The notes under the pieces were generated by a model. It was given only the letters and a program-made list of their open reading frames with translations, had not been told where the DNA came from and did no database searches. A stretch of DNA of 64,000 bases, taken from Sphingorhabdus wooponensis. Its GTDB lineage: Bacteria > Pseudomonadota > Alphaproteobacteria > Sphingomonadales > Sphingomonadaceae. Shown one piece after another: positions 4,863 through 5,925 of this stretch. How positions within the stretch are numbered: position 1 is the stretch's first letter; each line of letters begins with the position of its first letter. Both the position numbers and the translations under genes were made by a program. Location of the stretch: contig NZ_RWJI01000001.1 in assembly GCF_003933235.1 (NCBI RefSeq), positions 316,001 through 380,000 on the forward strand, written 5' to 3'.

Positions 4863-4927
4863 CAAAAACTCTCCCCCACTGATGGGCGCGAGTTTGGTCA
4901 GCTTGGGCCAAGGTTACAAGTAAAAAA

Positions 4928-4949
4928 GCCCGGACGCGGATGTCCGGGC
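4928..4949 (-). terminator. intrinsic terminator of the RcnB-like gene
   Basis: GCCCGGAC (4928-4935) and GTCCGGGC (4942-4949) form a perfect 8-bp stem with a 6-base loop. Read on the minus strand the hairpin is followed by a run of T, 18 bases past the stop of the gene ending at 4968. Confidence 0.85.
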
Positions 4950-4967
4950 CATTTCGTTTTTACGTGC

Positions 4968-5801
4968 TTACCAGAAAAAAGCGGGAATGACGTCAACCAC
5001 ACGGCCATTGCGCACATCGACCAAAAGGACATCGTCATAATAACGCACCCAACGGTAGCTGCCATAGGCGGCGGGCAGGCGATACTGCCAAGGGTCATTG
5101 ATCCAAAAGCGCGGACCAAAATAAGCCGAACCTAAAGAAAAACCGATGGAGATGCGGCTATATTTACGGTCACGATAGGGGGCGTAATAGCGGCCGGGAC
5201 GGTAATAATTTCTGTTCTGCTCGCGATATTTGCGCCAATTATAGCGGCCGTCATTGCGCCAATTGTCGCTCCAGCGGCCCATTTGATTGCGGTCTAGCCG
5301 GCCGTCACGGTTCCGGTCGTAGCGACGGTCAATGCGTTCATCGTCATTGCGGTCAAAGCGGCGATCCAGCCGGCCATCACGGTTCCGATCCCAATTCCGG
5401 TCCAGATTGCCATCGCGATTGCGGTCCCAGCGGCGGTCGAGGTTACCATCACGATTGCGATCATAATATCGGCCGACCTGACGCGCTTCGCGGCGTTCGG
5501 TGGGCACACTAGCGCGCTGGGGTTCGGCGCGACTTTTGACTTCCTCTGCTGGTGTAGGCTCTTGCCAGGACTGCAAGCGCCGCTGCATGCTTTGCTGCCG
5601 CGCGGCCCGACGTTCGGCGCGTTGTTCAGGCATAGGGTTGGCGCGGGCCTCTTGCCGTTCGGCACGCCGTTCCTCGCGCTGAAAATCCGCGACACCGTCA
5701 ACCATCATGTCGGCGCGAACGGGTGCGGACGGGGCCGCATAGGCCGCGATAGGCGCAAGCGCGGTCGCGGTTGCCAAAGTCATGAGTATATATTTTTTCA
5801 T
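4968..5801 (-). CDS. RcnB-like periplasmic protein with tandem calcium-loop-like repeats
   Basis: ATG at 5801 has GGAGA about 8 bases upstream, giving 277 residues. The much longer open frame upstream is not needed. A signal peptide (MKKYILM...IAAYAAP) is followed by an Arg/Glu-rich charged region. Residues about 112-171 hold five 11-12-residue repeats of the form xDRNRDGxLDRR. Each matches the DxNxDGxxxD pattern of EF-hand or dockerin-type calcium loops. The last 70 residues (YRLPAAYGSYRWVRYYDDVLLVDVRNGRVVDV) match the RcnB family C-terminal domain. RcnB proteins act in the periplasm in nickel/cobalt homeostasis, and a metal-binding envelope role is inferred. Repeat 4 (DRNDDERID) is degenerate. 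Confidence 0.8.
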   Translation of the reverse strand: MKKYILMTLATATALAPIAAYAAPSAPVRADMMVDGVADFQREERRAERQEARANPMPEQRAERRAARQQSMQRRLQSWQEPTPAEEVKSRAEPQRASVPTERREARQVGRYYDRNRDGNLDRRWDRNRDGNLDRNWDRNRDGRLDRRFDRNDDERIDRRYDRNRDGRLDRNQMGRWSDNWRNDGRYNWRKYREQNRNYYRPGRYYAPYRDRKYSRISIGFSLGSAYFGPRFWINDPWQYRLPAAYGSYRWVRYYDDVLLVDVRNGRVVDVIPAFFW

Positions 5802-5925
5802 GGCAGGTCTCCATGGCAGAGGCACTATGCGACTGCGTTGGACCCCGTCTGAACCGATTCTGCTGAAGCGAAGCTGAACCATGTATTCACGTTCATGAAA
5901 GGAAGCATTTTGATGAACGAAGGGG

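Follow-up and report, generated by a model that had tools for sequence, protein, structure and literature searches.

A conserved five-unit repeat array with a calcium-loop-like pattern in an RcnB-family protein of Sphingorhabdus wooponensis

The locus and its tandem repeats

The window, by which we mean the whole stretch of 64,000 nucleotides that was analysed, encodes on its minus strand a protein of the RcnB family in which a tandem repeat array stands ahead of the C-terminal domain. The features of this locus are:

4968..5801, minus strand: RcnB-family gene, 277 aa (open reading frame and Pfam)
5733..5801, minus strand: signal-peptide-like N-terminus, aa 1-23, MKKYILMTLATATALAPIAAYAA (by eye from the sequence)
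5466..5732, minus strand: variable N-terminal linker, aa 24-112 (dN/dS about 0.27 in 11 orthologues, gap-rich alignment)
5430..5465, minus strand: repeat 1, aa 113-124, YDRNRDGNLDRR
5394..5429, minus strand: repeat 2, aa 125-136, WDRNRDGNLDRN
5358..5393, minus strand: repeat 3, aa 137-148, WDRNRDGRLDRR
5322..5357, minus strand: repeat 4, aa 149-160, FDRNDDERIDRR, loop Gly replaced by E
5286..5321, minus strand: repeat 5, aa 161-172, YDRNRDGRLDRN
4971..5276, minus strand: C-terminal part, aa 176-277, containing the Pfam RcnB match (window 4992-5135)
4927..4950, minus strand: terminator-like hairpin just past the stop codon (consensus scan)
5863..5878, minus strand: direct repeat TTCAG-N6-TTCAG upstream of the gene, 11-base spacing, TTCAGCTTCGCTTCAG

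The likely start is the ATG at 5801 and the stop lies at 4968, the open frame extending further upstream. Residues 223-270 match Pfam RcnB (PF11776) at E 1.3e-13, with 51 bits and so above the curated cut-off of 25.9, and this is the single Pfam RcnB match at E <= 0.01 in the genome; among NCBIfam models there was only a weak, sub-threshold match to T3SS_CigR_fam (11.5 vs 78 bits). The RcnB end and the signal-like N-terminus are compatible with a periplasmic site, and the protein is probably secreted. The consensus scan that marked the hairpin gave four terminator-like sites in the whole stretch, against 1.5 expected.

The halves of the upstream TTCAG repeat are invariant in 11/11 aligned orthologues. 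Conservation is high over the whole stretch upstream of the gene, however, at a mean column identity of 89%, and the genome has two occurrences of the pattern against one of a control pattern; the repeat is therefore a lead only, as a possible regulator site. A literature search on this repeat returned nothing usable.

The repeat array itself is real. Five tandem 12-residue units, 60 residues in total, occupy aa 113-172 (window 5286-5465) with the consensus [W/Y/F]DRNRDGxLDRR, and the first-pass annotation was correct in placing some 60 residues of repeats before the RcnB C-terminal domain. It had counted five DxNxDGxxD repeats; there are indeed five units, of which four are canonical and the fourth, DRNDDERID, does not match the motif. 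Nor is the repeat length the 11-12 residues given there, the period being exactly 12: self-identity of the array is 0.73 at spacing 12 and 0.72 at spacing 24, and TRF reports a 36-base tandem period in the DNA at 5373-5462. Over spacings of 2 to 24, the next-best values fall at multiples of four (identity 0.41-0.50), because Asp recurs at every fourth place. When the 60 residues were shuffled 200,000 times, no shuffle reached three or more D.[ND].DG..D motifs and 46 reached two or more, compared with four observed; this null would be beaten by tandem duplication alone, and conservation among orthologues is therefore the better test. A DNA pattern for a single motif found two other sites in the genome, each solitary, and the reversed control pattern one match. 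The array has a net charge of +3 and contains neither His nor Cys, the usual Ni/Co ligands.

Constraint and distribution of the array

Sixteen loci were compared with that of the window. Over the full length of the protein, identity is 66-87% for eleven of these, which come from Sphingorhabdus or from Sphingomonadaceae/Sphingomonadales MAGs; two further MAG loci are 59-60% identical across its second half, and three Sphingopyxis loci are 46-47% identical. Gene order is kept: the downstream amidohydrolase gene was matched in 14/16 loci, and for the M15 dipeptidase gene upstream the figure is 9/16.

In a set of 11 orthologues (the protein of the window and ten others), no other part of the protein is as constrained as the array, which is under strong purifying selection: mean dN divided by mean dS is 0.046 there (55 of 55 pairs usable), compared with 0.094 for the RcnB end (54 pairs) and 0.273 for the N-terminal linker (53 pairs). 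Synonymous differences were found at all twelve unit positions, and the letters of the array are therefore held by selection at the protein level. D1, the position-6 residue and D9 showed zero changes, Arg 2, N3, Arg 4, D5, the aliphatic residue at position 8 and Arg 10 had changed in 0.036 of comparisons, and positions 7 and 11 and the aromatic residue were the most changeable (0.16-0.22). The first five units stand in identical order in 11/11 orthologues, and in each of them unit 4 is of the NDDE or NGDE type, without the loop Gly. Recent repeat turnover or concerted evolution among these close orthologues was rejected, since same-index units of different species are more alike in DNA (0.875 identical) than different-index units within one protein (0.659).

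The first-pass annotation had also proposed that repeat number varies. This holds mainly between lineages, which carry about four to seven units; among close orthologues the number is nearly fixed. Within the genus, three members (L030-L032) have one extra unit and one (L029) is down to about two. In two loci of another genus (L081 and L087, g89), the array, of seven units, lies in two blocks with a short spacer between them; the second block is a repeat of the opening three units of the other, which amounts to a larger block duplication.

The array is limited to few lineages. With an array query at E <= 1e-6, matches were found in 15/298 genomes of the family, belonging to 5/96 genera, in 16/45 genomes of the window's own genus, and across a sample of the class in 1/385, the genome of the window itself. 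All 20 of the 20 array matches listed lie inside proteins with an RcnB-like end. When 70 orthologues were surveyed by their C-terminal end, the array was present in four (own genus, g43, g87 and g89) and its motif absent in 66. In 62 of these 66 motif-free orthologues the spacer consists of R, D or N to a fraction of at least 0.40, the exceptions being L119, L160, L162 and L167. Such motif-free spacers often have short periods of their own, of DARR, RDYR, RDGYRDG and RWNDN types, and in six loci (L100, L105, L109, L122, L132, L155) other Arg/Asp/Asn repeats, DARR-, RDYR-, WNRDRN- or PGNDRDWRDN-like, precede the RcnB end. The spacer in other sphingomonad genera is hypervariable and of low complexity, next to a domain that is conserved; where close relatives keep the array with little change, most of the family has different charged sequence.

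A tree of 111 C-terminal ends calls for nine changes of the array label, at least seven of them by well-supported branches. Two loci with one or two motifs (L029 and L092) were scored as non-array; scoring them as array leaves nine changes, and omitting them gives eight. A single array clade was rejected on this tree at a p-AU of 0.0005 (102 columns, with unsettled bootstrap). The history of the array may be one of repeated gain, of exchange, or of repeated loss from an ancestral array. A shared origin or exchange is favoured over independent invention, because the 12-residue unit is near-identical in all lineages.

Likeness to calcium loops

The pattern of the units was surveyed in 78 of them, distinct within each of eight lineages and drawn from 29 proteins; they were picked by positions 10-12 in a motif-anchored register, and these anchors are partly circular, the arrays having been found by the motif and positions 10-12 being fixed by choice. 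The least variable positions were D1 (0.95), N3 (0.96) and D9 (0.98), position 5 was D or N in 0.96, position 6 G, N or D in 0.96 and position 8 V, L or I in 0.95, and position 7 was the freest. Dx[DN]x[DN]Gx[ILV]D was matched by 61/78 units and the strict pattern with D5 by 39/78. With Arg 10 and the aromatic residue at position 12 alone as anchor, a chain was found in 37/117 proteins and 41/60 distinct units matched; in five of those 37 proteins (L040, L105, L128, L156 and L165) the chain lacks the motif.

The side-chain pattern of the array units is that given for calcium loops by Rigden et al. 2011 (PMC3123361), who describe the loop in many non-EF contexts and allow as a further ligand an Asp that may lie only two residues away from the motif; D9 of the array units is an Asp of this kind. 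Units 1, 2, 3 and 5 combine Dx[DN]xDG with such a nearby Asp. The earlier reading of Asp/Asn/Asp-Gly/Asp as a calcium-loop pattern is thus strengthened by the aliphatic residue at position 8, the D or N at position 5 and the freedom of position 7, and falls short of an EF-hand.

EF-hand membership was rejected on two grounds. The best Pfam match within the array, to EF-hand_6 in two stretches, scores 20.4 against a cut-off of 25, and EF-hand_5 (17.3 against 25.9) and EF-hand_1 (13.5 against 25.4) are likewise below theirs. In addition, an acid at position 12 was found in 0/147 motif-matching units, which were picked without any condition on positions 10-12 and come from the 37 proteins with such units among 117 examined. 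The 12-residue spacing leaves no space for flanking helices between units, though AlphaFold2 pLDDT there is 27-34.

With 16 sequences, AlphaFold2 gave a mean pLDDT of 37.9 for the whole protein and of 40.7 for the array with the RcnB end. The values over the array come in both models from shallow alignments with calcium ions absent, and in neither of the two models (16 sequences each) was a fold of the array confidently predicted; values this low are compatible with loops and equally with the plain coil that the first-pass annotation named as a refuting outcome. Searched against the PDB with phmmer, the array returned troponin C and calcium-binding protein 1, and the N-terminal part Tom20 and ATP synthase b, all at E 0.31 or worse (15 sequences listed); neither thrombospondin nor dockerin was among the 15 sequences listed.

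Competing readings and known systems

We give a probability of about 0.42 to the reading that this is an exported RcnB-family protein whose spacer has turned, in this lineage, into a conserved five-unit array of weak calcium-type Dx[DN]xDG loops that stiffen the linker. Export is what we infer from the signal-like N-terminus; calcium binding by the array is possible, at somewhat less than even odds. At extracytoplasmic calcium levels, each canonical unit would weakly hold a Ca2+ ion through D1, N3, D5, D9 and the backbone at position 7. On binding, the Arg/Asp-rich chain would fold up as a stiffer rod in which each unit's aromatic and aliphatic residues pack in between the loops, and how far the RcnB end reaches would depend on this rod. 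Most other family members would keep the distance by plain Arg/Asp/Asn-rich spacers that need no calcium. Support for calcium-type loops comes from a dN/dS in the array below that of both the RcnB end and the N-terminal linker, from the match of 61/78 units to the extended pattern, and from the identity of the best Pfam and PDB matches (EF-hand_6, below its cut-off, and troponin C, at E 0.31 or worse). Against them stand the net charge of +3, the absent position-12 acid, the low pLDDT, the absence of the motif in 66/70 orthologues, and the fact that Arg 2, 4 and 10 change as rarely as N3, D5 and position 8. Since these Arg residues are equally conserved, and since the Gly-less unit 4 keeps its own type in 11/11 orthologues, conservation does not track calcium competence alone.

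The rarity of the motif and the composition of the motif-free spacers would be expected if the array were one flavour of a hypervariable polyampholyte spacer, rich in Arg, Asp and Asn and of low complexity, which spreads the RcnB end over the anionic envelope or holds it at a distance from an anchor; the calcium-loop pattern would then be a by-product of composition and tandem duplication. We consider this a plausible reading, if one we are inclined to doubt. It would fit the failure of AlphaFold2 to find a fold, the short periods of other spacers and the retention of Arg 2, 4 and 10 like the Asp and Asn residues, but it does not lead one to expect a constraint stronger than that of the RcnB end or a unit order kept in 11/11 orthologues, with same-index units the more alike, and composition does not demand an aliphatic position 8 or only D or N at position 5. 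The same Arg residues, together with a W, Y or F at position 12 at 0.75 in frames picked by Arg 10 alone (edge frames included), would also suit a metal-free folded Arg/Asp solenoid or rod. Its 12-residue turns would be kept together by Arg-Asp salt bridges and by stacking of the aromatics, and anionic envelope polymers of the LPS or peptidoglycan type would bind to its surface. AlphaFold2 does show 12-periodic bridge patterns; they involve units 1-3 in one model and units 3-4 in the other, however, and so disagree, with a pLDDT of about 30 at the array in both, and N3 and G6 are better accounted for by a calcium-type turn. Such a rod is in our view improbable.

The direction taken by the first-pass annotation was that of a periplasmic divalent-metal buffer, for which the net charge of +3 and the missing position-12 acid of the array are to be weighed. 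In its fuller form the protein would be an RcnB for nickel/cobalt or copper, keeping metal stored in the array and buffering it for the RcnA pump. In favour of this are the RcnB Pfam domain above its cut-off and, in PMC13371490, the statement that E. coli RcnB is thought to modulate RcnA efflux, as well as a title cited there that reports copper binding by E. coli RcnB. However, NicO/RcnA had no match at E <= 0.001 in the genome of the window, which is listed as 100% complete, while an E. coli control was detected; the RcnA/NicO pump by which a functional RcnB would be recognised was thus not found in this genome. Across the family, RcnB-domain genes are very common (matches in 179/199 genomes, often several per genome) and the pump is rare (9/99, with no match in the other 90). 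The array, moreover, has neither His nor Cys. A nickel buffer was rejected as the main reading for want of RcnA, a metal reading being possible for calcium and unsupported for nickel, and metal handling for RcnA is very improbable here. It also follows that the name 'nickel/cobalt regulator' should not be transferred to this protein. As to other reports, rcnB was raised by uranium in one strain, according to PMC8963506, and SGRAN_2273 of Sphingopyxis granuli is said in PMC7083833 to carry an EF-hand Ca-binding domain and to be under a promoter of the general stress response; the latter protein may or may not be related to the one described here. A literature search, with subscription journals and protein databases outside its scope, found no paper joining 'RcnB' and 'EF-hand'.

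If the loops do bind calcium, calcium-type arrays come and go within one protein across related genera, which would bear on the origin of Dx[DN]xDG motifs, a matter taken up in PMC3123361, and a very common but functionally vague sphingomonad protein would acquire a testable role. The wider proposal, that the charged hypervariable spacer of one exported family repeatedly became, lost or exchanged calcium-type loop arrays with one 12-residue unit, and so offers both a natural series for the origin of calcium-binding repeats and, in the sphingomonad envelope, a length switch governed by calcium, we regard as rather unlikely as a whole.

Among known systems, E. coli RcnB (PF11776) shares with the protein of the window the C-terminal domain, here above the Pfam cut-off, and a signal-like N-terminus; the protein of the window differs in its long, array-bearing N-terminal spacer and in a genome where no RcnA partner was found. 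The EF-hand is alike in the first nine loop positions and differs in the position-12 acid, apparently in the space for helices between units, and in Pfam scores, which for the array lie below three cut-offs. Thrombospondin type 3 repeats and dockerin loops are serial DxDxDG-type loops outside helix-loop-helix contexts that bear further acidic ligands near position 12, in contrast to the aromatic residue of the array. Thrombospondin is named in PMC3123361, and it is the Dx[DN]xDG linear motif treated there that four of the five array units resemble, sharing D1, N3, D5, G6 and D9 as well as the aliphatic residue at position 8. The array differs from that motif in that its units follow one another head to tail every 12 residues, with Arg pairs between them.
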